Assembly (NCBI GenBank): GCA_947503525.1 | Contig: CANNEA010000001.1 | Coordinates: 186,001 to 250,000, forward strand | Reading direction: 5' to 3' | Source of the DNA: an uncultured Carboxylicivirga sp. | Lineage (GTDB): Bacteria > Bacteroidota > Bacteroidia > Bacteroidales > Marinilabiliaceae | Length of the DNA: 64,000 bases | In this document: in pieces, positions 5,595 to 60,686 of the stretch | Numbering within the stretch: the first letter of the stretch is position 1 | Layout: each line of letters starts with the position of its first letter | Notes under the pieces: generated by a model | The model's database searches: none | Seen by the model: the letters and a program-made list of their open reading frames with translations, nothing else | Told to the model about the DNA's origin: nothing | Position numbers and translations under genes: made by a program

Positions 5595-7808
5595 TTATTG
5601 TTTGATAAATTTAACCGCTTTTAAGTTTTTACTATCCTTAAACCAGATAAAATAAATACCATTGTTGAGTTCTGAAATATCAAGAGTATTTGTTGATCCA
5701 AATAACTGACCTTGATTGATTTGATTTCCGGAAAGGTTAACTATTGAAAAGCTCAATTTTGAATTCAATGGATTGTCAATGTTTAAATTACCTTCTGTTG
5801 GGTTTGGGAATACTCTCATCTGATTTAACGGATTGTCTTTAATTCCAACATCAGCTCCGTCATTGAAGTTAAATCCGGAACGCTTTATTTCGGTACTTTG
5901 ATTGTAGACTTTTAATATCATGGTTGTAATATGTCCTCCGGCATCACCGAATCTAACACTTACCTTATTATTACTTTGTAAATATTCATAAGGCACGGGG
6001 ATTTCAAGCACTCCAAAGAAGCTATCTCTGTTTTTTTGATCATAACCTCTCCAATCTTCCGGCACTCGTAATTCATTGCCATTTATGACTAATGTAGGTT
6101 TAAGTTCTTTGTCATGAGCACGTCCTACTCCAACACGTAATATGGCTTCTCCATTATTCGCTATATCTACATTGTTGATGTTGAAGTTAACAGCGAGACT
6201 TGCATTAATAGTTTGTAAATACTTGTCGGCATAATAATCCTTCTCAGAGCTTGTTTCATTAATTGAAATCGCACTGTCAAAATTATATTCTATTATCATT
6301 GTGGCTTCAGAATTAAGAACAATCTGATCAATGCCTTCTGTGTAATCTGTTATTTCTATCGTTGAGCGTTCACCATCTAAATATTGATGCTTCACCTTTA
6401 GAGATTGAATAGTATTTGATCCAGATCCAAATAGTTTTAAGTCTACGTTACGGTCTTCACTATTTAAGTTACTTAGGATAAGATGAACTTTATTGCCATC
6501 AACATATGCATCACTTAAGATATCAAAATCAGTAGACTTAGTATCAATTCGAATTCCATTAACATCAGACCAGAACTCATAAAACTTAAGGATGTCAGTA
6601 TATATATATCCACCATGAGGTGTTTCGCCCGGAAGTTCACCTATTTCGCGAAGTAAACGGGATTGATAATTGTTGTAATCAGCTCCAGCAGGTTTCGCCC
6701 ATATAGCTTTTAATAATACAAATGGGATGGCGTTAATCACCTGGTCCTGTCGCTCCAATAATTGCAACATCATATTATTGAATGAGCGAATGTTATACCA
6801 ATCAATAAGGTAATTATATGACCCTTCATAATCTTTACAAAACCATCCATATTCTGAAATAGAAAAGGGTTTTACATCACCAAGTTTTAGAACACTATAG
6901 TGATTAATCATGTCCATTATGGCTTCAATGTTGGCTCCGGCCCGTTTTGTTTTTGTTCCATCCAGACTACCATCTAATGTGATGTCATATAAATGAAATG
7001 AGAAGAAATCCATGTTTTCACCAGCTACATCTATAAACATCTTCCAGTTCGAATTCCAATGTCCAAAATTATTGCTTTCAAATGCCGGGTGGGCTGCTGT
7101 ATACCCTCCCACCATAATATCTGGAGTCATTTCCTTAACTCGCTTGGCCACCACATTATGATATTTTGCAATTTCTTCTTTGGTAGTTCCCAATGAACCT
7201 GCCTTTACAAAAGGTTCGTTAATAACTTCCAGCATCTTTGGTTGAGGTCGGCCATTGCTTCCGCCTGTACCAAAAAAGTCCTTTAAATAATTGGCGTAAA
7301 ATTCTGCAGTTGCCTCATGCCCTTCATATATCAATCCATAACGTGATGTTTCTTGTCCATGCGGATACATGTGCTCTTGTCCTCCCACCATCATGTTAGT
7401 GTAGCGGTCTTCAAACTGATGTGCAAAAGTTTCGGCGGCATAATTATCAATAGCTAATTGTGCACGGGTCTTCATAAAGTCAATGTCAGGCCATCCGGCT
7501 TTGTTAGGATCTTCTTTTGTATTATTATATTCCCAAACTATTGTTCCGTTATTGCGACCGAGATATACATCATTATCTTCCAGGAACGATTTTTTCATAT
7601 CATCTGATTCCCACTCTTTACCAGTTAAATCTTCGTGGAAAATAAGGTACTTGCTTCGATCGAATTCGGAAACTCCCCCGACGATGTGTTTAATGTTAAG
7701 ATTAACATCAATAGTATCCTGAGCAATTAATAATATTGGACTCGATAGCGTAAGAATCAAAAGCAGGAAATTCTTATTAATAATAGTTTTATGAGATTGC
7801 AGATCCAT
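5595..7808 (-). CDS. GH86 endo-beta-agarase/porphyranase with T9SS signal
   Basis: This GH86 protein has 737 residues from the ATG at 7808. The acid/base is E198 in EVINEPF and the nucleophile E319 in SISEYGW, in a TIM barrel followed by beta-sandwich domains. Residues from about 664 form a T9SS C-terminal sorting domain beginning near VFPNPTEGN and ending in KFIKQ, so the enzyme is exported to the cell surface or medium. An upstream in-frame GTG at 7844 is rejected because a perfect -7 box (7829-7836) lies between it and the ATG. GH86 members cut beta-1,4 bonds of agarose or porphyran internally; which one is not resolved. GH117 follows in the operon. A paralogue is at 36789. Confidence 0.9.
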   Translation of the reverse strand: MDLQSHKTIINKNFLLLILTLSSPILLIAQDTIDVNLNIKHIVGGVSEFDRSKYLIFHEDLTGKEWESDDMKKSFLEDNDVYLGRNNGTIVWEYNNTKEDPNKAGWPDIDFMKTRAQLAIDNYAAETFAHQFEDRYTNMMVGGQEHMYPHGQETSRYGLIYEGHEATAEFYANYLKDFFGTGGSNGRPQPKMLEVINEPFVKAGSLGTTKEEIAKYHNVVAKRVKEMTPDIMVGGYTAAHPAFESNNFGHWNSNWKMFIDVAGENMDFFSFHLYDITLDGSLDGTKTKRAGANIEAIMDMINHYSVLKLGDVKPFSISEYGWFCKDYEGSYNYLIDWYNIRSFNNMMLQLLERQDQVINAIPFVLLKAIWAKPAGADYNNYQSRLLREIGELPGETPHGGYIYTDILKFYEFWSDVNGIRIDTKSTDFDILSDAYVDGNKVHLILSNLNSEDRNVDLKLFGSGSNTIQSLKVKHQYLDGERSTIEITDYTEGIDQIVLNSEATMIIEYNFDSAISINETSSEKDYYADKYLQTINASLAVNFNINNVDIANNGEAILRVGVGRAHDKELKPTLVINGNELRVPEDWRGYDQKNRDSFFGVLEIPVPYEYLQSNNKVSVRFGDAGGHITTMILKVYNQSTEIKRSGFNFNDGADVGIKDNPLNQMRVFPNPTEGNLNIDNPLNSKLSFSIVNLSGNQINQGQLFGSTNTLDISELNNGIYFIWFKDSKNLKAVKFIKQ

Positions 7809-8189
7809 GGCCCTAATTTTAGTTTCTACAAAAATAAAGTTCACCCAGCGGGCTGTAGGTTCAAATTGGTCTTAAAAAGAGAGGTAAATAAGTTTGGGTA
7901 TAGTTTAGTAATTGGAGGGTTGGTGTTTGATATCTGATAGGGTTGGTGTTTGAAATATATGAAATCATAAATGTTGAGTGCGATATTGCTGCGAGTTTTA
8001 AATTGGCCAAAGACAAATGATGTTTTACTGTCAAAAACGATAAATTCAGATAGTAAGTTGTGACATGATGATTCAGAAGTCCTATGCTAATAAATTGAAA
8101 ACACAAGATGTTAATCTTGAATCTTTCAGCATTATTTTAAGAATTGGAATACAAGTAATAATTAAGAATGATAAACTCTTACAGAATAT
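7809..8189. other. Intergenic region upstream of GH86
   Basis: About 380 bases without a convincing gene. Besides the promoter at 7829-7890, the sequence has two GGGTTGGTGTTTG-like repeats at about 7917-7930 and 7939-7951. An 81-codon open frame here (7861-8106, minus) has low-complexity composition, overlaps the promoter and is not annotated. Confidence 0.5.
7829..7890 (-). promoter_or_regulatory. Promoter of GH86-GH117 operon with C-rich box
   Basis: On the minus strand TATTTACCTCTCTTT (7876-7890) lies 39 bp before TATTTTTG (7829-7836), a perfect TAnnTTTG -7 box, 20 bp before the ATG. This repeats the two-part promoter layout of the locus and supports the start at 7808. Confidence 0.55.
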
Positions 8190-8555: not shown

Positions 8556-9206
8556 TAATAATTCTTTAAGGTTATAGTCTGGTTTGGTTAATTGATAAGA
8601 ATAGCAATTACTAGTGCTATGCTAGTCCTAACAATATCCACAAGTTATGTTATTTTTATAACAAAATAAACAAGTACATATTTATTTTTATAAGAAAGAT
8701 TTTCTTAAGTAGGCTTTATTTTATTCTTCCCGGGTATTCTTTGTCCTTCAATTTTTATATTCTCAATTAACTAGGATAATTATTATTCCTCGGCTTATTG
8801 TGTTTTACAAAACTGATTGCTAGCAGTTTTAAGCCTGCGTTTACACATAGTAGGTTAGAAAAGTTGATTTTTTTATTCGGAAGTCTTAAAAGGAATAAGC
8901 GCCCTTAATTTCGAATTAACGGTTACAATCCACTATTAATAGGTGAATTAAGTGAAAATACAGAGCTTGACTTAGTTTAAACATTATCATATCTTTTTTT
9001 TCCGATTTTTTGTGATCCTCACCTAAGGTCATTTTAAACTATTGGAAGTTGTGCTTTCATAAGCATCATGATTGTGCAATAATTAACTTTTATAACTAAA
9101 CCTAATTAAGTATGAGAAAGGCATTTCTTATAAGGGGGAGTCCTCACCTCTAATTTCGAAGAATCATTCATTTTTTTCCAATTTATTAACACCTAATATT
9201 TAATTT
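8556..9206. other. Long intergenic region before the S8 protease
   Basis: 650 AT-rich bases with no credible open frame. It must hold the promoters of the LytTR gene and the giant protease. A C-rich stretch TCCTCACCTCTAATTT at 9141-9156 resembles the boxes seen elsewhere, but no -7 box follows at the usual distance. I see no RNA gene or strong hairpin. Confidence 0.45.
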
Positions 9207-36788: not shown

Positions 36789-38975
36789 ATGATGAATCGA
36801 TTTCTAACTTTAGCTATACTGCTGTTAATGGGAATATCTGTAAATGCCCAGCAGAATATTGAGGTGAATGTATCACCGAAAATATCACGCAGTATTAGTG
36901 GCCATAAAGAGTTAAACCGTACCAAGTTTTTTAATCTGGCAGCCAATGTCAATGAAATTAAAAAGAACTTGATGGGAACCGATCGTGAACGATTTGATCG
37001 TTATTTTAAAGAATACGAAATGACGCTGGGACGCCGTTTAGGAATGGTGAACACAGAAAATCGCTGGGGAGGCGGAGCTATTAAGGAAGATGCAGATAGA
37101 CCCGGCTACATGGATATTCAACACTATATTGATTCGCGTCAGAACCTGAATGATGACGGCTTGGAAGATTTAATAGCCATTTTGGGTGAAAATCAAAATT
37201 TGGCTCTACATGAAGCCAAAGATCCTTATCCTGATTTTATGGATTTGTTTGCTGATCCTGATGGCCATACTTATCCTAACAAACCGGATGCAGGTGCTGA
37301 AATTATCTCAACAATACTTAAGCATGGCTTCACTGATTTTCAACGCCCGGCTTACTATGAAATCATGAATGAGCCACATTGGTCATTAACGGATAATGAA
37401 AAGTTTATCCAGTTACATACCATGGCCTATGATAATGTGCAGGCTGATGGAATACCAACAAAAGTAGGTGGACCTTGTTCATCGGTTACCTATTACTACA
37501 AGAAAGAATATGCAAGTCTTGGCTCAATGACAAAGTTTATTGATGGAACAGATAATAAACTAGACTTTTATTCTTCACACAGTTATGACTATATGCGATG
37601 GGACGATGATGCCTATGATTTTATTGGTCGTATTAGTTCAGGTTTGCCGCTAGAAGGGGTATTGGATGCCTTGGCTGCTTATACTCATAATACTTATGGA
37701 ACTCAATTGAAATACGTGGTTAGCGAACATGGCGGATACATTAGTAATAGCGACAATCGCGAAGCAGCCTTGGAAATGCTAGGTCAAAAATATTTCCCGG
37801 GTTCAGGTTTTGAATATGAAATGCAAAAACGAACCATTGATAATTTTATAATGGTTAATAGTGCTATTGCAAATACTTTAACCTACATGAATCATCCTCA
37901 TATGGTGGAAAAAGCCGTTCCATTTATATTGTTAGAAACATCAGGTTGGGACCCTAAATATTACTCAAGCTTATTGGTAAAAGAGGATTTTGATAAAAAC
38001 AGTAGTGTGTTTCATGAAGCTCGCCTAATAGATTATTATCGCTATTTTGCTGATGTTAAAGGTCGCAGGGTTAAGACGTATTGTAATGATTCTGATATTC
38101 AACATTATTCTTTTGTAGATGGTAGTTCTCTTGTTATGTTATTTCATAATCAAAGTAATGAGTCCGGAACCATTAACTTAAATATAGAAGACACTGGCTT
38201 AGCCTTTAAAGATGCCTTATTACGTCGCTTGGGCAGAGGTGAAGATTTCAGACCTGTATTTACTGAAGAAGCTGTAAATTCATTCAATAGTTTGTCAATT
38301 GGTGGTCAAGAATCAATTGCTTTATTTATTAACTACTCTTCGGATATTCCCGAGGATGAAGAAACAAATGAAGAGATCTTCTACGGGAAAGAAACCTCAG
38401 TTCAATTTAGTGGTGTCAGAAACTTTGCTCTTGAAATTCCTGATTATGATCGGATTGATGAGGGTGTCTTAAGGATTGGAATTAGTCGTGATGCAGCCAA
38501 TTCAAAAGATGTGAAGATTTACTTGAATGATGCACCATTAAGTATAACAGTGGAAGATTGTGCCGAAAGAAATACTGTAGACTACTATGCAACGACTAAA
38601 CTGATAAAGGTTAGTGGTGATATGTTTACACGAAATAATACAATTAGAGTTGAGTTTCCTGACGGAAAGTCTGGTGGGGTAGGTGCTATTGTACTGCGTG
38701 CAATTATGAGCGATGATGTATTTGTACCGGATGGTCCTAAATACAATAAGGGTGTTTTAAAGATATACCCTAATCCTGCTCAGTCAATAGTGAATGTAGA
38801 GTGCGAAGAAGAAGGGGATATTGAGATAATTGGTATGGATGGACTCGTTAAAAATAGAGTAGCCAGTGCTTATGGTGTAACTCAGGTATCTATCGCCGAT
38901 CTTGCTAAAGGCAATTACATTGTACGATTAATCTCTAAACAAGATGCTTTTACGAGTATTTTAACCATAAATTAA
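36789..38975 (+). CDS. GH86 endo-beta-agarase/porphyranase with T9SS signal
   Basis: A 728-residue GH86 enzyme; the signal peptide ends near SVNAQ. The acid/base is E195 in EIMNEPHW and the nucleophile E313 in VVSEHGGY. Two beta-sandwich regions follow the barrel, and from about residue 655 a T9SS sorting domain begins (KIYPNPAQS, ending ILTIN). The enzyme is therefore secreted or surface-bound and cuts the polymer internally. It is a paralogue of the GH86 at 5595 but differs near the active site (MNEPHW against INEPFV), which may reflect different substrates such as agarose versus porphyran. It follows the GH2 gene by 10 bases. Confidence 0.9.
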   Translation: MMNRFLTLAILLLMGISVNAQQNIEVNVSPKISRSISGHKELNRTKFFNLAANVNEIKKNLMGTDRERFDRYFKEYEMTLGRRLGMVNTENRWGGGAIKEDADRPGYMDIQHYIDSRQNLNDDGLEDLIAILGENQNLALHEAKDPYPDFMDLFADPDGHTYPNKPDAGAEIISTILKHGFTDFQRPAYYEIMNEPHWSLTDNEKFIQLHTMAYDNVQADGIPTKVGGPCSSVTYYYKKEYASLGSMTKFIDGTDNKLDFYSSHSYDYMRWDDDAYDFIGRISSGLPLEGVLDALAAYTHNTYGTQLKYVVSEHGGYISNSDNREAALEMLGQKYFPGSGFEYEMQKRTIDNFIMVNSAIANTLTYMNHPHMVEKAVPFILLETSGWDPKYYSSLLVKEDFDKNSSVFHEARLIDYYRYFADVKGRRVKTYCNDSDIQHYSFVDGSSLVMLFHNQSNESGTINLNIEDTGLAFKDALLRRLGRGEDFRPVFTEEAVNSFNSLSIGGQESIALFINYSSDIPEDEETNEEIFYGKETSVQFSGVRNFALEIPDYDRIDEGVLRIGISRDAANSKDVKIYLNDAPLSITVEDCAERNTVDYYATTKLIKVSGDMFTRNNTIRVEFPDGKSGGVGAIVLRAIMSDDVFVPDGPKYNKGVLKIYPNPAQSIVNVECEEEGDIEIIGMDGLVKNRVASAYGVTQVSIADLAKGNYIVRLISKQDAFTSILTIN

Positions 38976-45159: not shown

Positions 45160-46692
45160 ATGAAATTTAAATATAGTCTTATTGTGGTCGTTTTATTATT
45201 GGCAATGAACTCTTTTGCCAAAAAGGATAGGCGACCAAATGTTTTGATTATTTATACAGATGATCATAGATATAGTGGTATACATGCTTTGGGAGCTCAG
45301 GCAGTAGAGACTCCTAATATGGATTTGTTGGCTAATTCAGGTATTGTGTTTGATAATGCTTTTTTGATGGGATCCTTCTCTGGAGCAACTTGTATTCCAA
45401 GTCGAGCTATGTTACACACCGGCCGGGACTTGTTTAAGCTAAAAGGACAAGGTCATAATATACCTGAGGGGCATACCACCATAGGAGAGTCTTTTCAGCA
45501 AGCCAATTACAACACCTACATTGTAGGTAAGTGGCATCAGGATAATGCTTCTTTGATTCGTTCATTTGATGAAGGAGCTAGCATTATGGGACGTGGCGTG
45601 TATTTGACCGATCATTTTCGAATGCCGCTATGGGATTGGGATAAAGAAGGAAAGTTTGCTAAAGAAGATGCGTATTTGCTGACTTACGATGCCGACGGTG
45701 AAATTGTGAAAAGGAAGCTTGAAAAAACGGATAAAAGAGGTCCAACTGGCACGGAGGAGGACGGGCCACATACTTCTGAAATATTTGCGAATAGTGCTTC
45801 TCATTTAATATCCGCATACGATAAGGAAGAGCCATTTTTCATGTATTTGGCCTTTCATGCGCCACACGATCCAAGGCAGGCACCTCAGGAATATAGAGAC
45901 ATTTACCCTCCGGAATCCATTCAATTACCTCCATCATATATGCCTCAACACCCATTTGATAATGGACACTTGGTGTTGCGTGATGAAGAACTAGGACCTT
46001 GGCCAAGAACGCCTGAAGTGGCTCGTCAGCACTTGGCTGACTATTATGCCATCATTACCCACCTTGATGATCAAATTGGTAAAGTGATAGATGCACTTAA
46101 AGCATCCGGACAATATAAAAATACACTAATTGTATTGGCCGGAGATAGTGGTTTGGGAGTTGGTTGTCATGGCTTGTTGGGTAAGCAAAATGTATACGAT
46201 GAGGATGGAATTCATGTTCCTTTTATAATTTCGGGAGGACTAGTTAAGGAACATAAAAGGTATGAGGCCTTGTGTTATATTCACGATATTCTTCCAACCG
46301 TTTGTGACCTGGTTGATATAGCTACTCCAGGTTCAGTCACAGGTCAAAGCCTGATGCCTGTAATTAGTGGTGATAAAAAAGAAGTAAGAGATTATACCTA
46401 CCATGCCTATCGCCAACACCAGAGGGCTTATCGTAAAGGTGATTATAAACTAATTGAGTTTGTCAGAGCCAATGATCATGATTGGAAACGTGGAGATTTA
46501 GTAAGAGGATCTAAGGTCACTTTATTGTTTGATTTTAAAAATGATCTCTGGGAAACCACCAACTTGGCCTTTTTGCCTGAGTATAACGAACTCCTTACTG
46601 AGATGCGTAAAGAGATGAAGCAAAAAGCAATTGAGCTAGGTGATAATAAACAAACAACCGGAGAGCAGTTTGACTTCTGGGATTATTATTAA
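45160..46692 (+). CDS. S1 family sulfatase
   Basis: A 510-residue secreted sulfatase; signal peptide ending near NSFA, formylglycine motif CIPSR with C78, metal ligands in YTDDHR and AGDSG, and GKWHQD in place of GKWHLG. It begins 98 bases after GH28, the largest gap in this run. No C-rich box or clear -7 box is in that gap, so read-through from the operon is likely. It ends 52 bases before the convergent histidine-kinase gene, with no obvious terminator between them. Substrate position unknown. Confidence 0.89.
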   Translation: MKFKYSLIVVVLLLAMNSFAKKDRRPNVLIIYTDDHRYSGIHALGAQAVETPNMDLLANSGIVFDNAFLMGSFSGATCIPSRAMLHTGRDLFKLKGQGHNIPEGHTTIGESFQQANYNTYIVGKWHQDNASLIRSFDEGASIMGRGVYLTDHFRMPLWDWDKEGKFAKEDAYLLTYDADGEIVKRKLEKTDKRGPTGTEEDGPHTSEIFANSASHLISAYDKEEPFFMYLAFHAPHDPRQAPQEYRDIYPPESIQLPPSYMPQHPFDNGHLVLRDEELGPWPRTPEVARQHLADYYAIITHLDDQIGKVIDALKASGQYKNTLIVLAGDSGLGVGCHGLLGKQNVYDEDGIHVPFIISGGLVKEHKRYEALCYIHDILPTVCDLVDIATPGSVTGQSLMPVISGDKKEVRDYTYHAYRQHQRAYRKGDYKLIEFVRANDHDWKRGDLVRGSKVTLLFDFKNDLWETTNLAFLPEYNELLTEMRKEMKQKAIELGDNKQTTGEQFDFWDYY

Positions 46693-46744
46693 TATATGTA
46701 TTTAGCACCTAGTGTAAAACGGCTAACGAAGTTGCAGAATAACT

Positions 46745-48817: not shown

Positions 48818-48943
48818 ACAACAAAAAATTAAGTAATGATATGCTTCATTACGAGATGTCTGCTCTATTCAAAAGCAGGATTGATAATATAAAGATAGCA
48901 ATGTTATTACAGATTCTTTATAAAAAGACAAAAAAGTATGAAT

Positions 48944-50431
48944 TTAGAAAAACATATTCATGGCAAATTCCAAATCAAAGCCTTCGTGAGTTGAAAGCTC
49001 AATATATTCACACCGATCAACAACCTGATTTAAGCGAGAATTAAATAGCTCGGATTTGACGTGTAAAATAGCACCTGTGCCTGAAGTATTTCCAATAGGA
49101 ATTGTTTTATCGAGTAAACTTGGAGGTAATAGACTAATGCGAGTTGCACTCTCAGGATTGAGGTAATTGCCAAATCCACCAGCTAGAAATAGCGCATCAA
49201 TAGTATTCATTGAAAGCCCTGCCGATTGCACTAAAATATTGATGCCAGATAATATAGCACTTTTAGCTAATTGAATTTCTCTTACATCTTGCGGGGAAAT
49301 GCAAATGCTTGATCCATCTATTTTATTAGTAGCGATATTATAGTTTTCCTCCAAAAAACCATCTGTCGACACTGTCTCGTTTTCAACCAGGTAGGCCATG
49401 ATATCCAGCAAGCCGGAGCCGCATATTCCAATAGGTGATTCATCAGATATAGTTTGATATTCTCCTTTATTATATGAAGAAATAGCTCCATCTAAAGCTG
49501 CCATACCATGCGATATGTTTGCTCCTTCGAAGGCTGGTCCGGCAGCAGTTGAACAGCAATATATTTTTTCGGGCGTTACCAATGCCATTTCACCATTGGT
49601 TCCTATATCAACAAATAAATAATTCTTGATTTGCTCAGGTGCCTCTATCGATGCGAGTCCTGAAACTATATCAGATCCTACATAACCAGAGATAGAAGGC
49701 AAAAGATGAACCTGGGTCTGTGGATTTGTTTTTAAGCCCAATTCTGATGATGTCACTTTTTTTGCTTCTGTGAATTGAGGAGTATATGGAGCCAACGCAA
49801 TGGAAGATGGACTGACTCCCAGTAATAAATGAAGCATAGAAGTATTCCCGCTGACTGAAATTTGCACTAAACGATCGGAGTTGACACCAATTTCGTTACA
49901 AGTATAATTGATCTCTTGTTGAATGCAATTAAGCATACTGTTTTGAAGTTCGACTAAGCCATTTTCACTATTAGAGAAATTAATACGGCTAATAACATCA
50001 GCGCCATAAGCGGATTGTGGGTTTTTTATACCCCTGGTTTTAATCAGACTCTGATCAATATAATTGATCCAGTAAAATACTACGGTTGTTGTACCAATAT
50101 CGATGGCAAGTCCCAATGGATAATCAACCTCATTGGCTAGCTCAGGTGGAACAGGAGTCTGTTTGAAAGTGTATTCGTGTTGAGCTGTAAGAATCTTGTT
50201 TTCAGATTCATTGGGCATGTAGACTTCCAGATCATTTATAGGATAATGCGTGCAGGCAGTAACGATTCCAAGCCCTTTAACTTTAACTCTACATTTGCCA
50301 CATGTGCCGTTACCACCACACGGTGCTGTAATGTCTTGTTCATTCTGACGAATAATCTGGAGAAGATTGTCACCTTCGTTGTATGATGTGCTTTGAATCT
50401 TATTATTGGAATGAACAGTTATTTTCGGCAT
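48944..50431 (-). CDS. RACo-type reductive activator of corrinoid protein
   Basis: This 495-residue ATP-dependent activator keeps corrinoid methyltransferases working by reducing inactive cob(II)alamin to cob(I)alamin. An N-terminal [2Fe-2S] ferredoxin domain has Cys38, 44, 47 and 60. After a linker, an ASKHA-type ATPase domain (DIGTTTVVF near 110, DIGTNGEM, AGGFGNYL) follows. It is shorter than acetogen RACo proteins of about 630 residues. It overlaps the upstream MetH-activation-like gene by 29 bases, showing tight coupling in the operon. Cytoplasmic. Family assignment is firm; its partner is taken to be the corrinoid protein encoded at 53600. Confidence 0.9.
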   Translation of the reverse strand: MPKITVHSNNKIQSTSYNEGDNLLQIIRQNEQDITAPCGGNGTCGKCRVKVKGLGIVTACTHYPINDLEVYMPNESENKILTAQHEYTFKQTPVPPELANEVDYPLGLAIDIGTTTVVFYWINYIDQSLIKTRGIKNPQSAYGADVISRINFSNSENGLVELQNSMLNCIQQEINYTCNEIGVNSDRLVQISVSGNTSMLHLLLGVSPSSIALAPYTPQFTEAKKVTSSELGLKTNPQTQVHLLPSISGYVGSDIVSGLASIEAPEQIKNYLFVDIGTNGEMALVTPEKIYCCSTAAGPAFEGANISHGMAALDGAISSYNKGEYQTISDESPIGICGSGLLDIMAYLVENETVSTDGFLEENYNIATNKIDGSSICISPQDVREIQLAKSAILSGINILVQSAGLSMNTIDALFLAGGFGNYLNPESATRISLLPPSLLDKTIPIGNTSGTGAILHVKSELFNSRLNQVVDRCEYIELSTHEGFDLEFAMNMFF

Positions 50432-51137
50432 TCTTTGGATCTTTTATTCGTTTATTACGGTAGATGCAATTAGCGCTGGAGCAATCGTTGCAGACATGAT
50501 GTTTATACTTTGCATTTTTGCCAATGCCAATTATTCCACTGACCGATTTAGAAGGTGACATTAAACTCGATTCGCTCAAGCTAACGTTGCAGAATTGATT
50601 AGGTAAAAGGCTGAAAAGTTTTTGTTGTTCGCCAACATTCCAATCTACATACCCGGGGCTATAACGATTTGTTGCTTTCAAGCCATTTTTCAAAAGTTCT
50701 TCTTGTAAGGTTTTTTGGATACGGTCCATCGCTTTTTCAACGATAACAGATCCCAATATATCAACAAGGAAGCCTTCTATTAAATCACCATTCTGAGAAA
50801 GCTCCATTGATCTTTTACTAACTTCGGGGCCGGCGGTGCAAACAAATACTGCAAGCTGAGAACAGTTTGTGTAATGTTTCGCAATAGCTTCTCCCATTTG
50901 AAATACTTGTCCTTCAACTTCAATGCGATCATTCTTTGAATCAGAATCCAGTATGATGTATCCTCCTTCAATAGACGCATCAAGCAACGTGCTATTGATT
51001 TCTTTATTAAGAAATTCGATGTAAGAAGGCATTCCTTCGCCCATGCGAGCAAGTTTCTCAATGTTTTCTATTGAGATGTTTAATTCTTCAATATGAAATT
51101 TAAAATGCCTTGTATTTGAGAGGTTCACATTACCCAT
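50403..51137 (-). CDS. Methionine-synthase activation-domain-like protein
   Basis: The protein has 244 residues from the ATG at 51137; a TTG at 51152 is possible. The middle part resembles the reactivation domain of B12-dependent methionine synthase: YSPGYVDWNVGEQ, then SPSKSVSG. Stand-alone forms accompany corrinoid methyltransferase operons and are thought to hold the cobamide during reductive activation. The C-terminal tail adds a cysteine cluster (VCNDCSSANC), likely a metal or Fe-S site. It overlaps the RACo gene by 29 bases and follows cobW by 21, so the three act together. Confidence 0.83.
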   Translation of the reverse strand: MGNVNLSNTRHFKFHIEELNISIENIEKLARMGEGMPSYIEFLNKEINSTLLDASIEGGYIILDSDSKNDRIEVEGQVFQMGEAIAKHYTNCSQLAVFVCTAGPEVSKRSMELSQNGDLIEGFLVDILGSVIVEKAMDRIQKTLQEELLKNGLKATNRYSPGYVDWNVGEQQKLFSLLPNQFCNVSLSESSLMSPSKSVSGIIGIGKNAKYKHHVCNDCSSANCIYRNKRIKDPKNAENNCSFQ

Positions 51138-51158
51138 ATTTAGCGTTGACAAAATCCT

Positions 51159-52082
51159 TTACAAGGTAAGGTTCTCCGTGAGTTTTTTAAACATCTTGCG
51201 TAAATCTGTTACCATCAAATTATCTCCAAAAGCTATTAATTCACTTGGACCAGCATAATTTTCCAAAATAACAAAATCCACCTTGTCATAAACTGTGTGA
51301 ACAGACATGATTCTGCCATCATTAAGGTTGAGATAACCTTTAACTCTCGGACAGCTTTTCATCAGTTCGCTAACAAATAACTTAAGGCCCACCTCTGATA
51401 TTTTCTCATGTGTTCGTAAAACACAAGCTTTTATCTCAGGCCTTCCTTCTGACTCCTGACCAATATATTGTTGCGCAGCTTCACTCTTATTGCCTTGATC
51501 GATGGTTAAACTGTTCCAATCTACTTTACCATATGAAGTACTAATTATTTCAGCGTAGGGATTGAGCGTTTTGAGTTCGGATTTAATGCTTTCAACATTA
51601 TCATCAGCTAAATCCATTTTGTTGATGATAACTTTATCAGCTACCATTATCTGATGTTTAAACCGAACCAAACCTTTTAATCCCTTAAAGAAATTTGGAG
51701 CATCAACCAGACTAATGATTTTATCTAAAGTAACAATGTCTTTGAGAATGTCAGTTTGGAGGAGTTCAATTACACTTATTGGATCGGCAAGACCTGAGGC
51801 TTCAAGAAAAATAATTTCAGGTTGATAATCCTCAATAAGGGTCTTCATGTTTTGCACAAAGTTATTAAGCTGACAAACGCAAAATACTGAGCCATTATTG
51901 ATTTCAACCAGCTTAAAATCATCATTTTTTTGTTGTAACTCTTTACCATCAATACCAGACGGTGCAAATTCATTTTGGATAACGGCAATGCGTTTCTGAG
52001 CTGACAACTCATTCAATAAATTGCTTAATAAAGTAGTTTTACCACTTCCCAGAAACCCTGTAATAAGATTAAATGCAACCAT
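51159..52082 (-). CDS. CobW/COG0523-family GTPase
   Basis: A 307-residue G3E GTPase with Walker A GFLGSGKTT (residues 9-17), GLADP and the NKMD specificity motif, and a C-terminal CobW domain. These proteins deliver metal ions (Zn, Co) or assist cobalamin enzymes. The canonical C-x-C-C metal motif is changed: VFCVCQ keeps C68 and C70 and lacks the third Cys. In this operon it may load zinc into the methyltransferase or help handle the corrinoid; that is inference. A terminator-like hairpin lies directly upstream (52087-52126). Confidence 0.88.
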   Translation of the reverse strand: MVAFNLITGFLGSGKTTLLSNLLNELSAQKRIAVIQNEFAPSGIDGKELQQKNDDFKLVEINNGSVFCVCQLNNFVQNMKTLIEDYQPEIIFLEASGLADPISVIELLQTDILKDIVTLDKIISLVDAPNFFKGLKGLVRFKHQIMVADKVIINKMDLADDNVESIKSELKTLNPYAEIISTSYGKVDWNSLTIDQGNKSEAAQQYIGQESEGRPEIKACVLRTHEKISEVGLKLFVSELMKSCPRVKGYLNLNDGRIMSVHTVYDKVDFVILENYAGPSELIAFGDNLMVTDLRKMFKKLTENLTL

Positions 52083-52086
52083 AAGT

Positions 52087-52126
52087 GAAAAAAGACTTAG
52101 CCCTTAACTTTTACATAAGGGCTAAG
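52087..52126 (-). terminator. Intra-operon hairpin before cobW-like gene
   Basis: On the minus strand CTTAGCCCTTA and TAAGGGCTAAG pair perfectly over 11 bp around a 9-base loop, followed by TCTTTTTTC. The T-tract ends 5 bases before the cobW start. It looks like a true intrinsic terminator placed inside the operon and should lower expression of the three activation genes. Confidence 0.85.
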
Positions 52127-52141
52127 GTATTATTAAGAGTT

Positions 52142-53497
52142 CTATTTATTAGCTAAATAGCCTTCTATCTTAGATTTAATATCATTAATAGGAGGTATTT
52201 GCGAAATGAAATCGATATTACCATCCATTACTATTGTAGGAAGGTTTTGAACACCCAGGCTAGCCATCATCTGAACACCCTCTTTTTCTTTGATTCGATG
52301 TTCTTTGTATACAACTTTATCACCAAATGGCTCGGCAGCTCTGGCTACTGCATCCATCATGTACTGACAAGGAGCACAAGATGATGAATCCAAGGTAATA
52401 ACATCAATCACAACCTTATCTTTTGCCCAGTGGGAGCTTAGGTCCAATAGTTCAATGTCCATGCCTTTGGCTTCAGAAGCACGTAGTTCACCCTGAAGTA
52501 ATTCGTCATGAACCAATTCTGAAACGGCTACCAGATTGGCTTCCGGTGTTTCCATTGCTAAATCACAACCAGGAGCTAAAATAAACCCTTTTTTGCCACC
52601 AATATCCATGCAGTCCAAGGCATCTCTGCGTGAAGCGTCTTCATCACCCATAAGTAATACAACAGTTAATTTGATATTACCTCCAAAACTTACATTGTGC
52701 TTAAGTGCCATATCACGAACAAAATCTAAAGGAATATTCTCATCAATTGAAATATTATCCGGATTAGTCTGACACATCACTTCAATGTTTTGTTTAGCAT
52801 TCCCACAAACAAAAAATGAACTTAAGGCACCAGCTTCGCGAATAAAGTCATTAATTTCCTTAACGTAAGGTGAAACGAATGTAGCGAAACTATCCGGGTC
52901 AATCTGACTGGTCATTGGATCAACAATAGCGATTACATCAGCACCCGATTCAATGTAATTACCAGCCATCATTAAAGCCACATCAGTTGCAAAACGCATT
53001 AATTTATGCGTTTTTTCCGGCTCCATCATCATCTGCATGAAAATATCGGTACCAAGAAGGTGAAGAGCTAATGTAAAAGGACCGGTGATCAAGCCATATA
53101 GAGCCAAATCAGGATGCTCATCACGCAGTCTTCTTGTGGCATCCATTACGGTTGGGATTCTTCCCTTACAAGGACATGGAACTTTTAAATCTTCCAAAGA
53201 CATTCCATTCATTAAAGGATGTGAAATAACAGCAGGAGGATTGTCATCGGCCCATGCCAATTCGCAACCAAGAGCTTCAGCCTCAATTTGTAAATCAAAA
53301 GCTACAGGGATCCCATCCGGGTTGTATTTCTTAATGGCTTTATTAACGCCTTCAACAATTTTATCTGTTGACTGAAGAAATTCAGTTGCAGTAAGTCCAA
53401 GCATAGCTCCGGCATGCGAACCTACAAATGGTACCCAAGGAATACGTTCGACTTCCTCCAGTTTCATTGCTTTTTTAATCAGTTCAAGTCCTTTCAT
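52142..53497 (-). CDS. UroD/MtaA-type corrinoid methyltransferase fused to a thioredoxin-like domain
   Basis: The protein has 451 residues from the ATG at 53497; a TTG at 53542 is rejected. Residues 1 to about 345 form the uroporphyrinogen-decarboxylase-like barrel used by MtaA/CmuA methyltransferases, which move methyl groups to or from a corrinoid protein. The second zinc-ligand region is present (LAPGCDLAMETP). The first reads FFVCGN: its Cys is kept, but the His of the usual HxCG is Phe. Residues from about 365 form a thioredoxin-like domain with the redox pair in SSCAPCQ. It follows the corrinoid-protein gene by 102 bases. Whether it is the methyl donor-side or acceptor-side enzyme is open. 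Confidence 0.85.
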   Translation of the reverse strand: MKGLELIKKAMKLEEVERIPWVPFVGSHAGAMLGLTATEFLQSTDKIVEGVNKAIKKYNPDGIPVAFDLQIEAEALGCELAWADDNPPAVISHPLMNGMSLEDLKVPCPCKGRIPTVMDATRRLRDEHPDLALYGLITGPFTLALHLLGTDIFMQMMMEPEKTHKLMRFATDVALMMAGNYIESGADVIAIVDPMTSQIDPDSFATFVSPYVKEINDFIREAGALSSFFVCGNAKQNIEVMCQTNPDNISIDENIPLDFVRDMALKHNVSFGGNIKLTVVLLMGDEDASRRDALDCMDIGGKKGFILAPGCDLAMETPEANLVAVSELVHDELLQGELRASEAKGMDIELLDLSSHWAKDKVVIDVITLDSSSCAPCQYMMDAVARAAEPFGDKVVYKEHRIKEKEGVQMMASLGVQNLPTIVMDGNIDFISQIPPINDIKSKIEGYLANK

Positions 53498-53548
53498 TGT
53501 TTCGTATTTTAGTTTTGCTTTATTTAATTTTAGACAATACAATCACAG

Positions 53549-53565
53549 GTCAGACAAGGTCTGAC
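53549..53565. other. Short hairpin between corrinoid protein and methyltransferase genes
   Basis: GTCAGAC-AAG-GTCTGAC is a perfect 7-bp stem with a 3-base loop in the 102-base spacer. There is no T-tract, so it is more likely an mRNA processing or stability element than a terminator. Confidence 0.5.
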
Positions 53566-53599
53566 TATGTTAAGTGTCACTAAGTCAGTCAATTTATGC

Positions 53600-54268
53600 C
53601 TACGAAGCCTGACTATTTAAGAATTCAACCACACCTTGTGGGTCTGGATTATAGCTGTCTGCTCCAATTCTTTGACAGAACTCATCGTTAACTGGAGCAC
53701 CACCAATACAAACTTTGCGTGAAGCATCATTATCTTTAATCGCTTTAACTATCTTTTCCATGTTATTCATGGTGGTTGTAAGCAATGCAGACAAGCCAAT
53801 AACACTTCCTGGATGTTTTTCAGCTTCTTCAATAAACTTCTCAGCTTTCACATCAGTTCCAAGGTCAATAACCTCATAACCATTTCCTTCAACCATCATA
53901 GCCACAAGGTTCTTACCAATATCGTGCAAATCACCTTCAACAGTACCTATAATAAAGATGCCTTTACGTTCCGCTTCACCAGAAGCAAAAAACGGTTTAA
54001 GGTGTTCCATTGCAGCACTCATTGCCTTTGCACTCATCAATACCTGCGGCACGAATACTTTGTTTTCACGGAATTTGACTCCTACTTTTTCCATCCCAAT
54101 CATTAGACCTCCTTGTAAGATTTCTCCTGCTGTTATTCCAGAGTCCAAAGCTTGTTTTGTTAGTTCGTCAGCTCCATCTTGACCCTTCATTTGTGGAGGG
54201 AATGGGGATGCGTTATTGATTTTACCCGATTCAACGCAAATTGCTATTTGTTCTAATATTTCGTTCAT
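53600..54268 (-). CDS. Corrinoid (B12-binding) methyl-carrier protein
   Basis: A 222-residue protein of the MtaC/MtbC/MttC type. Residues 1-90 form the helical cap domain (GEILQGGLMIGMEKVG) and the rest a Rossmann-like B12-binding domain with GDLHDIGKNL, the D-x-H-x-x-G motif whose His ligates cobalt, then SALLTTTM and GGAPV. It carries a methyl group on cobalt between methyltransferases. It lies 18 bases after the regulator gene and heads the enzymatic part of the operon. The family is clear; the methyl source is not visible from this protein. Confidence 0.93.
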   Translation of the reverse strand: MNEILEQIAICVESGKINNASPFPPQMKGQDGADELTKQALDSGITAGEILQGGLMIGMEKVGVKFRENKVFVPQVLMSAKAMSAAMEHLKPFFASGEAERKGIFIIGTVEGDLHDIGKNLVAMMVEGNGYEVIDLGTDVKAEKFIEEAEKHPGSVIGLSALLTTTMNNMEKIVKAIKDNDASRKVCIGGAPVNDEFCQRIGADSYNPDPQGVVEFLNSQAS

Positions 54269-54286
54269 AATATTTAGTTAGTATTT

Positions 54287-55315
54287 TTATGTTTCTCGAT
54301 ATATAATTTCAGGTTGAATAATAATTTGATTGCTCTCCAAAGTATTATCTCCATTAATTAATCTTGCAATATTATTAGCCATAAAATCATATCTACAATC
54401 AATAGATGTAATTGATGGCTGAAATAATTCTGTTAATTCGGTGTTGCCATAAGCAACTATTGAAATGTCATTTGGAATGTTGAAATTCCATTTCTTTAAA
54501 CGCCCTATCAAACGAATTGCCAATGTATCTTTCATGGTGATGACACCTTGAATATTATTTTCTCTTAGGAATGAAGCATCTATTTTATCGATGTTGTTAA
54601 TGAAGAATAAGCTATTAACAGGCTTATTCTTGCTAATTAACATTTCAAAAGTTTGCTTGACGAGGTCGTAAACAAGGTTTCTTCCTTTCCAATTGTCGTC
54701 ATTAAGAAGTAAATAATTGCCGCTATGAGTAGAACTCAAATAATCAAAAGCACGTTTGACTCCTAAATCATAACTTTGGATAGCGTAATTGAAGTAAGAG
54801 CCAGCCATGGTATTATCGGCCAATACCAATTTTGTATTGCCGGTGCTTAGTTTCCTATAGAATGAACCTGTTATCGATTCATCATAATTTGGAACCACAA
54901 TTATAGCTTCATATCCTTTTTGGATCAATTGTCCGATGTAGCGCATTTCCTCTTCAGGATTATTGTAGTGAAGAAAATACTCCAAATCTTTATTAGCATA
55001 AGAAGCTTCTTTGCTCAACTGGGCAATTAATTCTTCAATATTGGACGAGTAAAAAGGAATAACCACACCCCATTTGGGCAATAGCTGAGTGGTTTCGGCA
55101 ATATAGGTTCCTCTGCCTGCTTGTGATACAACAAGTTGTTCTGTAATCAAATTTTTGATAACACGTTTAGCGGTTTCTCTTGAGACGCTATGACGGGTCA
55201 TCATTTTATTAATGGAATCAATTTTACTCCCTGGTATATAGTCTTGATTTATTATCCTTTGACGATAATAATCAGTTAGTTTTTTATATATCGGTATGTG
55301 ACCTTGAAAATCCAC
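54287..55315 (-). CDS. GntR-type regulator with LacI/periplasmic-binding-protein sensor
   Basis: A 342-residue regulator with an N-terminal GntR winged helix (about 8-73: IPIYKKL, SVSRETAKR, GRGTYIA) joined to a sugar-binding-protein type 1 domain of the LacI family (about 80-340). This AraR-like layout normally senses sugars or related small molecules. The only start is GTG at 55315. It is the first gene of the operon, 18 bases before the corrinoid-protein gene. Its start overlaps one copy of a direct repeat that also covers the likely -7 box, pointing to autoregulation. The sugar-type sensor is the main clue that the methyl donor could be a sugar. Confidence 0.87.
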   Translation of the reverse strand: MDFQGHIPIYKKLTDYYRQRIINQDYIPGSKIDSINKMMTRHSVSRETAKRVIKNLITEQLVVSQAGRGTYIAETTQLLPKWGVVIPFYSSNIEELIAQLSKEASYANKDLEYFLHYNNPEEEMRYIGQLIQKGYEAIIVVPNYDESITGSFYRKLSTGNTKLVLADNTMAGSYFNYAIQSYDLGVKRAFDYLSSTHSGNYLLLNDDNWKGRNLVYDLVKQTFEMLISKNKPVNSLFFINNIDKIDASFLRENNIQGVITMKDTLAIRLIGRLKKWNFNIPNDISIVAYGNTELTELFQPSITSIDCRYDFMANNIARLINGDNTLESNQIIIQPEIIYRET

Positions 55316-55405
55316 AATAAAGCTTTAAATCCACAATAAAAGTAAGCAATACTTTTATTAAAACCATCACATTACATCACAGTTAAAAATAAAACATCAC
55401 AGTTA
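55308..55405 (-). promoter_or_regulatory. Operator/promoter region of the methyltransferase operon
   Basis: Two identical 14-bp direct repeats (TTTATTGTGGATTT, minus strand) lie at 55308-55321 and 55327-55340, 19 bp apart. A -7-like box TACTTTTA (55337-55344) overlaps the upstream copy. Further up, TAACTGTGATGT occurs at 55374-55385 and 55394-55405 with 20-bp spacing, plus a degenerate copy (TAATGTGATGG) at 55364-55374. The first pair suits a repressor site for the GntR-type protein; the second may bind the same or another regulator. Confidence 0.5.
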
Positions 55406-55617
55406 TATTGATGTATATACTCATTAGGGTTAATATAGCTAAAGGAATGCAAATAAACATTAGTAAATCAGAATTTTGGTATAAGAGTAATTTTCATTCT
55501 TTGCTCACATCAGAAGATGTAAGTTGTAATAGTAGTATGTAGTAAAAACATTTTTTCAGGGAATAATTATTTCGCTACCTTTATCGGAAATGCTTCTGAG
55601 ATTAACCCAAATTATTT
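55316..55617. other. Divergent intergenic region between regulator and MscS genes
   Basis: About 300 AT-rich bases. The left third holds the repeats described at 55308-55405. Near the MscS gene, TACCTTTA (55576-55583) is one mismatch from the -7 box, with TTTTTTC 18 bp upstream in place of a -33 box; this is a weak promoter candidate. No gene is seen. Confidence 0.4.
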
Positions 55618-58098: not shown

Positions 58099-58111
58099 TT
58101 GATTCGGCTTT
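58084..58111. terminator. Hairpin shared by MscS and GH2 gene ends
   Basis: AAAGCCGAATC and GATTCGGCTTT pair perfectly over 11 bp around ATAATT. On the minus strand six T residues follow, so it terminates the GH2 transcript ending at 58146. In the plus direction it overlaps the MscS stop codon and has only three T residues. Confidence 0.82.
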
Positions 58112-58145
58112 GAGAGATAAACCTTAAAGTATTAGCTTTAAAAAA

Positions 58146-60638
58146 CTAATTCGTTAATATAGTTAAAGGATTGGAAACTAAACCATCTGAGGATGCTTTA
58201 ATTTCAATCTTTCCTTTTGTATTTGTTGAGCGCACAATTAGCATACCAAAACCATTGAAGGCTTTCCTATTATCCGATTTAAACACTTCCAGACTTGTTG
58301 GATCGCCATTGCCAATGGCTTCAATATTGCCCTGGCCGGAAACAGTAAACTGCACTCTGTTATCAGCCAATGGACACAGATTACCATTTTTATCTTCTAT
58401 GCAAAAGGTGATGTATGACAAGTCGTAATCATCAGCTTTTATTGTTGTCCGATCTGCTTCAAGAATGATTTTATATGGATCGCCTGCTGTATTAATTTCT
58501 TTTTCGGTAACGGCTTTCCCCTTATTGTAGCCAATAACCTTTAGTTGCCCGGCCTGATAAGGTACATCCCATGAAAGGCGATATTTTGAATGGTATAAAC
58601 CTTTTTCAAAACCATGAAATTCTGCTGGTATAGCGGTTAGGTCCTTCCCCTTTTGTTTTCGCCCAAGAGACTTTCCGTTAAGGAATAGTTCGGCCTCTTC
58701 ACAATTGGTATAAGCAAAAACAGGAATTTTTTGTCCTTCCATTCCCCGCCAATTCCAATGGGGAAGAATATGAATCATCGGCTTCGAAGTCCACTGGCTT
58801 TGGTATAGATAGTAGCGATCTTTAGGTAGGCCACATAAATCAATCGGACCAAAGTATGATGATCGTGATGGCCAATCTGTGTTCCATGAACCATGGCTTT
58901 TATTGTCTTCGCCGCCATATGGAGTTGGCTCGCCCAGATAATCAAATCCTGTCCAGATGAATTCACCAAGTGAATGTGGATTCAATTCTTGTTGCTCAAA
59001 TTCTACATCTGGTGGATAAGCCCATGGAGGTCCAACAATCGCATCATAACTTGATACCTGATTAGTATGGTGTTGCTCTTTGAATTCTATTGGATGGTGA
59101 TAAATGCCTCTGCTACTTGTTTGTGACGAAGTTTCAGAACCATACACTATTAAATTAGGATTTTTGTTGATAACATCCTGATAGTTAAGAGGCCAGTAAT
59201 TCAGACCAACAATGTCAACATAATTTGCAAGTTTATTAGTAAATGGAGCTGGATAATAATTAAACCCGGCAGTTGTTGGTCGGGTAGGGTCCTCTTCATG
59301 GCAAATATCGTTTAGCTTTTTAGTAATTTTCCAACCATCGGGAGTATTTTGCTCCAGTATTTCATTTCCGATACTCCACATAACAATACTTGGGTGGTTT
59401 TTATCACGCCGGATCATGTCCCTGAGATCTTTGTTATGCCAGGCTTCAAAATATTTGTTGTAACCGTTTTTGACTTTTCCAATTTTCCATTCATCAAAAG
59501 CCTCGACCTGCACAAGCATCCCTAATCGATCACATATTTGCAATAATTCTGGCGAAGGTGGGTTATGACTGGTTCGAATAGCATTTGCACCCATCTGTTT
59601 TAATATTTCAACCTGACGCTCAGTTGCTCTGTAATTAACAGCGGTTCCCAAAGGTCCCAGATCATGATGCATGCAAACGCCTTTAAATTTGGTGTTTTTG
59701 CCATTCAGAAGAAAACCGTTTTCACATGTAAAGGAGATTTCTCGCACACCAAATTCAGTGATATACTCATCCTTAATAATATCATCTTGAAGAATCTGAC
59801 TTACAGCTGTGTATAAATAGGGATGGTCTGTATCCCACTTGTTAACATTTTTAATCTTCAATTCCTGTTTGGCCATTCCGGTTTTACCAGGCTGAATGAC
59901 CACATTTGTTTTAATACCGGTAAGCACATTTCCTTCCGAATCCAGAATACTTGTAAATAATATTGCTGACTGCTCCTCTTTATACTGGTTATTAATATTA
60001 GTTGTCAAATGAATCTCAGCCTGACTTTCACTAATGCTTGGAGTAGTCACGGTTGTTCCCCATTGCGAGATATGCAATTTGTTATTAAGCTTTAAACGAA
60101 CATTACGGTATATTCCAGCTCCCGGATACCATCTCGAAGATAAATCTTCTGGTCGTAATCGTACCGCAATTACGTTAGGTCCTTTATAGTTGATGTAACG
60201 TGTAAGGTCGCATTCAAATCCCAAATATCCAAAAGGTCGATTACCAACAAGATGGCCATTGATCCAGACGTGGCTGTTGCTCATGGCGCCATCAAACTCA
60301 ACGGAAATACATTTTTCGATATTCTTTTTATCAATGGTAAACACCTTTCGATACCAGCCAGTTCCATGAACTGGAAGGCCACCGGTTCTTGCATTATATT
60401 CTTTGCTGAATGGACCTTCAATGGCCCAATCATGGGGAAGGTCAACATTTCTCCATTCTGAATCATCAAACTCAAGAGATTCTGCACCCGTTGCTTCACC
60501 TTTATAAAATACCCATCCCTTGTTGAAATCAATATCAGGAATGTCTTCTGATTTCTGACATGACATGGAAAGAGTCAGCAATACAATTCCAAACATTACT
60601 GATCTCCAAAAGACTATTTTAAATAGGTTAACTCCCAT
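58146..60638 (-). CDS. GH2 beta-galactosidase family lipoprotein
   Basis: This GH2 protein has 830 residues from the ATG at 60638; the longer TTG start at 60653 is less likely. The lipobox is LSMSC. Acid/base E426 is in WSIGNE and nucleophile E502 in YGSETS, followed by C-terminal Ig-like domains. It differs clearly from the two other GH2 genes of the window: ETSSQ replaces the ENW after the nucleophile, and there is an extra loop rich in Pro/Tyr (about residues 510-540). It is therefore not a recent duplicate and probably acts on a different beta-galactoside. It follows the beta-helix gene by 48 bases in one operon. Confidence 0.87.
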   Translation of the reverse strand: MGVNLFKIVFWRSVMFGIVLLTLSMSCQKSEDIPDIDFNKGWVFYKGEATGAESLEFDDSEWRNVDLPHDWAIEGPFSKEYNARTGGLPVHGTGWYRKVFTIDKKNIEKCISVEFDGAMSNSHVWINGHLVGNRPFGYLGFECDLTRYINYKGPNVIAVRLRPEDLSSRWYPGAGIYRNVRLKLNNKLHISQWGTTVTTPSISESQAEIHLTTNINNQYKEEQSAILFTSILDSEGNVLTGIKTNVVIQPGKTGMAKQELKIKNVNKWDTDHPYLYTAVSQILQDDIIKDEYITEFGVREISFTCENGFLLNGKNTKFKGVCMHHDLGPLGTAVNYRATERQVEILKQMGANAIRTSHNPPSPELLQICDRLGMLVQVEAFDEWKIGKVKNGYNKYFEAWHNKDLRDMIRRDKNHPSIVMWSIGNEILEQNTPDGWKITKKLNDICHEEDPTRPTTAGFNYYPAPFTNKLANYVDIVGLNYWPLNYQDVINKNPNLIVYGSETSSQTSSRGIYHHPIEFKEQHHTNQVSSYDAIVGPPWAYPPDVEFEQQELNPHSLGEFIWTGFDYLGEPTPYGGEDNKSHGSWNTDWPSRSSYFGPIDLCGLPKDRYYLYQSQWTSKPMIHILPHWNWRGMEGQKIPVFAYTNCEEAELFLNGKSLGRKQKGKDLTAIPAEFHGFEKGLYHSKYRLSWDVPYQAGQLKVIGYNKGKAVTEKEINTAGDPYKIILEADRTTIKADDYDLSYITFCIEDKNGNLCPLADNRVQFTVSGQGNIEAIGNGDPTSLEVFKSDNRKAFNGFGMLIVRSTNTKGKIEIKASSDGLVSNPLTILTN

Positions 60639-60686
60639 GATTTTGTTTTTCAAAGTACTTACACTATTCGTTGCGCTTTAATAGAT

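Follow-up and report, generated by a model that had tools for sequence, protein, structure and literature searches.

Porphyran and other algal polysaccharides are capped with methylated sugars. In the available portion of PMC10033563, the methyl sugar of porphyran is given as 6-O-methyl-D-galactose, and the context of its use comprises a cytochrome P450 (described with its crystal structure) together with its redox partners, an alcohol dehydrogenase, GH2 and GH16 enzymes, and an esterase; the P450 is a monooxygenase whose oxidative reaction gives formaldehyde as a product. The phenolic O-demethylases MtvB, OdmB, and VdmB of acetogens are assigned to the UroD superfamily in the accessible part of PMC13222342. 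For enzymes with a Zn site of this kind, PMC10418091 (Kountz and Balskus), as far as its text was available, associates His-Cys-Cys with S-methyltransferases and links the loss of one Cys by substitution to O-methyltransferases. Here, a six-gene operon (positions 48944 to 55315, minus strand) was analyzed within a 64,000-nucleotide stretch of the genome of an uncultured Carboxylicivirga sp. (contig CANNEA010000001.1), referred to below as the window. The operon is likely to be the common core of a system that would remove O-methyl groups from methylated algal sugars by corrinoid chemistry and without oxygen, a reading built on gene content, synteny, co-occurrence, a single PF02607 carrier, and P450 linkage. 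No earlier corrinoid sugar O-demethylase was seen in search listings of open-access papers, a scope with subscription papers and preprints mostly outside it.

According to the open reading frame (ORF) list and Pfam, the operon consists of six open, nearly contiguous genes on the same strand (Table 1), which at the listed starts are separated by 18, 57, 59, and 6 bp, followed by one overlap. The initial annotation had listed a GntR/LacI hybrid, a corrinoid carrier, a URO-D protein, a CobW GTPase, a MetH-activation-like protein, and RACo, and this list was correct: Pfam backs each gene, and the NCBIfam matches agree, yet every one lies below the curated cut-off. For comparison, the best 80 of 110 matches from a collection search were kept as loci (numbered with the prefix L); their ORFs were called and clustered by BLAST, and the frequent clusters were named by a Pfam scan of one or a few members, with distant members missed. 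An identical six-gene order was found in loci L031 and L116, so the grouping is not due to chance, and the six-gene operon is genuine. In L031, L039, L045, L116, and L126, the gene just before the corrinoid gene encodes a homologue of the GntR hybrid, and a CobW-cluster gene was present in 53 of the 80 loci. The motif DLHDIG of the carrier agrees with the DxHxxG pattern of free-standing corrinoid methyl carriers, and the RACo-type protein provides the ATP-dependent reductive activator (RACo/RamA) expected of a corrinoid system. The thioredoxin-like tail of the URO-D protein, whose Pfam match is below the cut-off, is an addition to the earlier description, and the probable start of this gene is the ATG at 53497. 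No Rfam match to a B12 riboswitch or other known RNA was obtained within 46000 to 58500 at the gathering threshold, and a custom search for palindromes in nine upstream regions gave nothing convincing as a common GntR operator.

The operon would serve as a common corrinoid core, and the methyltransferase specific for the sugar is probably another, shorter URO-D protein. This protein (∼340 to 415 amino acids [aa], about a quarter identical to the operon URO-D) is often found with the core in Marinilabiliales, Lutibacter, and Neiella. Eleven loci of its galactose type were mapped, and its gene directly precedes the corrinoid gene in 10 of them, the exception being L035, where a GH2 gene lies between. 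The two genes overlap by 1 to 4 bp in five of the 11 (Lutibacter L046, L047, and L050; Neiella L043 and L044), a galactokinase-cluster gene occurs in another five (L032, L036, L037, L041, and L042), and an AraC-cluster gene occurs in eight. The window operon is without a short URO-D, and its host genome encodes one elsewhere, at L164, in the order AraC, galactokinase-like gene, short URO-D. Judged by sequence, this protein is a candidate donor-specific methyltransferase I and might be the partner suspected in the initial annotation to lie outside the operon. AraC, kinase, and short URO-D genes are grouped away from the core in both L164 and L171.

Other short types are accompanied by the symporter RhaT (L039 and L128) or by RhaT and the L-rhamnose mutarotase RhaM (L040 and L124), which suggests one hub with several spokes, each specific for its own sugar. 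L040 and L124 each contain RhaT, short URO-D, RhaM, and the corrinoid core, with GH29 and SusC nearby; this version is suggested to act on methyl-rhamnose or another methyl-deoxysugar. In the window's genome, the short URO-D at L165 is of the RhaT-linked type (78%), that at L166 is of the rhamnose-linked type (59%), and the fourth, L168, has AraC-like and GH29-like neighbors; all of the short URO-Ds are far from the core. At L165 (positions 8275 to 10325), the AraC and short URO-D genes form a pair between GH3-like genes, ∼105 kb from the window and within the same galactan region. The PF02607 search revealed one free-standing corrinoid methyl carrier in the genome, namely, that of the operon, the other two matches being a 1,256-aa MetH-like frame and a 307-aa frame with a MerR-type-regulator-like start. 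Therefore, a corrinoid-dependent satellite would have to use the operon carrier, barring a carrier from some other family.

The link with galactan use was examined in 149 related genomes, in which the galactose type was called at E < 1e-100 (next best match, 1e-52), GH86 was called by PF18206, and the URO-D-thioredoxin protein (near-full-length homologues of at least 55% identity) was taken to indicate the core. The URO-D-thioredoxin protein was found in 19 genomes, the galactose-type short URO-D in 10, and GH86 in 9. GH86 was present in 8/10 genomes with the galactose type versus 1/139 without it (Fisher p 8e-11, or 1e-9 leaving out the window's genome; kinship uncorrected). All 10 galactose-type genomes carried the URO-D-thioredoxin protein, and nine had exactly one galactose-type copy. 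In a second set of 20 genomes, hand-picked from the 80 loci and covering two phyla, GH86 was found in all 6 genomes whose locus carried the galactose type (three Lutibacter, two Neiella, and one unclassified Bacteroidetes) versus 3 of the 14 whose locus lacked it (L039, L097, and L101; Fisher p 0.002). Leaving out L033, apparently G022 of the 149 relatives, gave 3/13 and p 0.003. Conservation mainly in genomes free of agar genes had been named as counterevidence in the initial annotation; it was true of the URO-D-thioredoxin protein and not of the galactose-type partner. A class sample of 395 genomes, with the URO-D-thioredoxin protein (E 1e-100) and the galactose type (E 1e-60) only in the window's genome and GH86 in three, was too sparse for association.

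Genes for a P450, a ferredoxin, and a ferredoxin reductase lie next to the core in three Lutibacter loci (L046, L047, and L050) and in a Bacteroidota relative (L113, genome G061), and the three Lutibacter sets also include an alcohol dehydrogenase and an esterase. The P450 of G061 is an evident orthologue of 6g5o (E 1.1e-190); we take 6g5o and 6g5q, the former code being absent from the PMC10033563 passages, to be 6-O-methyl-galactose demethylase P450s. A 6g5o-type P450 was detected in five of the 149 relatives, all five with the URO-D-thioredoxin protein and the window's genome among them, and was absent from 6 of the 10 galactose-type genomes. In the window's genome, this P450 with its ferredoxin and ferredoxin reductase is located at G000:C1:1038481-1039626 (L169:7838-10636), ∼800 kb from the operon. 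Since the P450 is encoded in the same genome, a corrinoid route would add an oxygen-free path to the oxidative one rather than stand alone.

Zn-site residues were read by alignment on MtaA (4ay7). Of 27 short URO-Ds, 18 had His-Cys-His (11 galactose type, 2 RhaT-linked, 3 rhamnose type by sequence, and 2 of a further type), 7 had His-Cys-Cys, and 2 had other residues, while all nine URO-Ds from satellite loci, L167 included, had His-Cys-His. Under the rule given in the available text of PMC10418091, the residues of the short type suit an ether-side role. The His-Cys-His URO-D at L167:9273-10334 has similar-sized matches in other genomes of the genus, also core-free ones, and this type makes His-Cys-His less clear-cut in marking corrinoid O-demethylases. 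Among solved proteins, the short URO-Ds matched MtaA and UroD first and CdmB, a relative of the phenolic O-demethylases, weakly; the AlphaFold model of the short type was confident, with a mean predicted local distance difference test (pLDDT) score of 87.9, and the fold search with it found MtaA first. A betaine or trimethylamine donor via MTTB was rejected, as no match to this family was found in the window's genome (1/14 control genomes matched).

The operon URO-D-thioredoxin protein showed different features. In all 82 distinct aligned sequences (the window protein and 81 homologues), Phe replaces the Zn-motif His of MtaA, giving the site F-C-C; the third Zn-site Cys is retained in 81, and the tail contains CxxC in all 82 (CAPC in 81 and CAAC in 1). 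Its closest solved relative by sequence and fold is the thiol methyltransferase MtaA, which was also found first in the fold search with its likewise confident AlphaFold model (mean pLDDT 90.3). By record title, the 80 loci include Clostridia, Verrucomicrobiota, Kiritimatiellota, Lentisphaerae, and two Neiella, and 52 fall outside Bacteroidota and Neiella. In those 52, no member of the MetH-activation-like, galactokinase, RhaT, P450, GH2, or GH29 clusters was found, and the corrinoid cluster was present in 9, RACo in 7, CobW in 28, and sulfatase in 3. The occurrence of the protein away from sugar-linked clusters argues that it is not a galactan enzyme as such. It was dropped as first choice for the sugar demethylase, being MtaA-like, having Phe at the Zn-motif His position, and staying with the core whatever the partner; it is probably not the sugar demethylase and, to judge from its nearness to a thiol methyltransferase in sequence and model, would fit the acceptor side better. 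The initial annotation had proposed that the operon demethylates O-methyl-galactose. A sugar-ether role is supported by the L164 candidate partner, the tracking with GH86, the P450 adjacency in four genomes, and the lack of MTTB; assignment of that reaction to the operon's own URO-D is opposed by the Phe, the likeness to MtaA, the 11/19 genomes without GH86, and the Clostridia and Verrucomicrobiota loci with other neighbors.

The loci provided hints of the acceptor. In L054 and L055, from two Clostridiales metagenome-assembled genomes, PabA/PabB/PabC-like genes (scanned in L055) are followed by the URO-D-thioredoxin gene and then by an FAD/BFD oxidoreductase, a hint of a folate acceptor. A homocysteine S-methyltransferase (PF02574) cluster gene (one member scanned) occurs in the URO-D-thioredoxin loci L097, L106, L109, L128, and L129, a hint of a thiol acceptor. 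No dedicated Pterin_bind methyltransferase II was found in the window's genome, where the two matches were a 284-aa frame the size of dihydropteroate synthase and the 1,256-aa MetH-like frame. In the Neiella loci L043 and L044 (Neiella marina is a gammaproteobacterium), the URO-D-thioredoxin protein is 77% identical and an arginase-family gene lies alongside; this copy is a likely horizontal transfer.

From these observations, the reaction, its substrate and methyl position, the acceptor, the role of the metal, and the regulation may be inferred as follows. The short URO-D of L164 would transfer the methyl group of an O-methyl-galactose (6-O-methyl-D-galactose being the likeliest) to Co(I) of the operon corrinoid protein, and the released galactose would pass to the kinase. 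The URO-D-thioredoxin protein would then move the methyl group from Co(III) to an acceptor, either a thiol or tetrahydrofolate. Corrinoid that had slipped to Co(II) would be re-reduced by RACo, perhaps with the MetH-activation-like protein, while the CobW GTPase would supply metal. The GntR/LacI hybrid would turn on the core in response to a sugar signal, and AraC regulators would turn on the satellites. Favored by a small degree is a wider, genome-wide scheme, an anaerobic sugar O-demethylase of hub-and-spoke design in which one core serves several sugar-specific URO-Ds, most under AraC (for methyl-galactose, methyl-rhamnose-like, and other sugars). Such a system would be an oxygen-free counterpart of the P450 and would have moved between Bacteroidota and Pseudomonadota with agar and porphyran use.

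Several observations weigh against a sugar O-demethylation core. The window's genome already has the oxidative P450 route, and G061 has the core and the P450, yet no GH86 match and no galactose-type URO-D. No GH86 was found in 11 of the 19 relatives with the URO-D-thioredoxin protein; conversely, GH86 occurs without that protein in G013 and, within the class sample, in G354 and G526. His-Cys-His is not a specific pattern, as it occurs in L167, whose like seems present in core-free genomes. The Fisher p values overstate independence because the genomes are related, and the galactose-type profile was built from core-adjacent members, which favors core-linked ones. In the stretch fetched for the Neiella loci, no GH2, GH29, GH86, or sulfatase-cluster gene was found; GH86 is present in both Neiella genomes.

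Other explanations were considered alongside the sugar-ether core. Methyl-sulfur or methyl-selenium compounds, in place of sugar ethers, would suit the MtaA likeness and thioredoxin tail of the operon URO-D, the His-Cys-Cys kept in 7/27 short URO-Ds, and the clusters of MtaA-like, corrinoid, and RACE proteins proposed for such donors in the available text of PMC10418091. They are nevertheless unlikely donors, since the linkage of the short URO-Ds to galactokinase, RhaT/RhaM, GH2, and the 6g5o-type P450 would be left unexplained, as would the association with GH86 (8/10 versus 1/139). The substrate might instead be a different sugar ether (a galactose methylated at O-2 or O-4, or an oligosaccharide bearing methyl groups), with the P450 keeping the 6-O-methyl substrate in a complementary role. 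The P450 and corrinoid genes, which share one genome and even adjoin, might then divide substrates rather than oxygen regimes, and the short URO-Ds come in several types. This division seems rather improbable, given that the methyl sugar named for porphyran in the portion of PMC10033563 available is 6-O-methyl-D-galactose, that a galactokinase fits a D-galactose product, and that nine of the 10 galactose-type genomes have a single copy of that type and six have no P450.

The remaining explanations give up either the corrinoid or the catabolic role. That the short URO-Ds are sugar-related enzymes without corrinoid use, incidentally adjacent to the core, is very unlikely given that the short URO-D gene runs 1 to 4 bp into the corrinoid gene in five genomes from two phyla and that the URO-D-thioredoxin protein is present in 10/10 galactose-type genomes, even with an L167-type His-Cys-His URO-D seemingly present in core-free genomes and the window genome's short URO-Ds distant from the core. 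Corrinoid synthesis of methionine or methyl-folate, fed by many donors, would account for the PF02574-cluster genes and for the PabA/B/C-like genes before the URO-D-thioredoxin gene; it covers the acceptor end only, and with a full-length MetH-like gene kept in the window's genome, it is scarcely credible as an alternative to a catabolic demethylase.

The features of the operon, its partner, and the surrounding galactan genes are listed in Table 1. Pfam matches show that the window also holds three GH2, three GH29-type, and one GH28-type enzymes and five sulfatases in total. The direct neighbors of the operon are a 7TMR-DISM histidine kinase (46745 to 48817), without an adjacent response regulator gene, and an MscS channel. 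The operon had been described as lying between agar/porphyran genes; it is indeed inside the galactan region, but it is not interleaved with carbohydrate-active enzymes, as the kinase and MscS adjoin it. An ORF of 3,078 aa is located at 9207 to 18443.

Table 1. Coordinates of the operon genes, the candidate partner, and galactan-related genes (window positions, except where a locus is given)
Feature	Position	Strand	Basis
Putative operon regulator, hybrid of GntR-type DNA-binding and LacI/RbsR-type sugar-binding domains	54287..55315	-	PF00392, PF13377; top NCBIfam RbsR, below cut-off
Corrinoid methyl-carrier, MtgC/MtbC-like	53600..54268	-	B12-binding_2 (PF02607) and B12-binding (PF02310); cobalamin motif DLHDIG
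MtaA-like URO-D methyltransferase ending in a thioredoxin-like domain (CAPC); proposed acceptor-side enzyme	52142..53542	-	Pfam, alignment, fold
CobW/COG0523-type GTPase; proposed metallochaperone for URO-D enzymes	51159..52082	-	Pfam; NCBIfam below cut-off
MetH-activation-domain-like protein	50403..51152	-	PF02965, E 1.3e-9
ATP-dependent reductive activator of corrinoid, RACo type, with a [2Fe-2S] domain at the N terminus	48944..50431	-	PF14574, PF17651, PF00111
Galactose-type short URO-D of the window's genome	L164:9558-10583		91% identical to the URO-D directly before the corrinoid gene in L036
GH86-type porphyranase/agarase	36789..38975	+	PF18206
GH86-type porphyranase	5595..7844	-	PF18206, PF18040
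GH16	1-1326		Pfam
Sulfatase closest to the operon	45160..46692	+	Pfam
GH2 enzyme, closest one upstream of the operon	58146..60653	-	Pfam

If correct, the proposed system would explain how full use of agar and porphyran might be possible in anoxic sediment, sugar ethers would join the donors of corrinoid chemistry, and the one-carbon group of red-algal galactans would enter anaerobic metabolism. The P450-core linkage offers a testable pair, possibly one sugar under two oxygen regimes.

When compared with known systems, the tested features match neither the UroD-type O-demethylases nor the type 1 mlp clusters exactly. Like MtvB, OdmB, and VdmB of acetogens, as described in the available text, the proposed system would cleave a methyl ether with a donor-side URO-D methyltransferase, a corrinoid protein, and an activator; unlike them, on a comparison by description only, its short URO-Ds are linked to sugar genes, and there is no Pterin_bind methyltransferase II besides the MetH-like frame. 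The type 1 mlp clusters, in the part of PMC10418091 available, share with the operon MtaA-like protein(s), a corrinoid protein, and a corrinoid activase without a separate folate methyltransferase. The operon differs from them in the thioredoxin tail of its URO-D, the CobW and MetH-activation-like genes, the sugar-linked partners, and the P450 of some hosts, and in place of the His-Cys-Cys of type 1 mlp, the window protein has F-C-C and the galactose-type partner has H-C-H. In the main text of PMC10418091, the words CobW, sugar, polysaccharide, and Bacteroid are absent, and thioredoxin appears in the reference list only. MtaA, the methylcobalamin:coenzyme M methyltransferase, is the best solved relative of the window URO-D in both sequence and fold, from which the window protein differs by the His-to-Phe change in the Zn motif and by the additional thioredoxin-like domain. 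The 6g5o-type P450 demethylase has the same proposed substrate class, 6-O-methyl-D-galactose, and its genes adjoin the corrinoid core in four genomes; it is a monooxygenase yielding formaldehyde, according to the available portion of PMC10033563, whereas the corrinoid route would need no oxygen.

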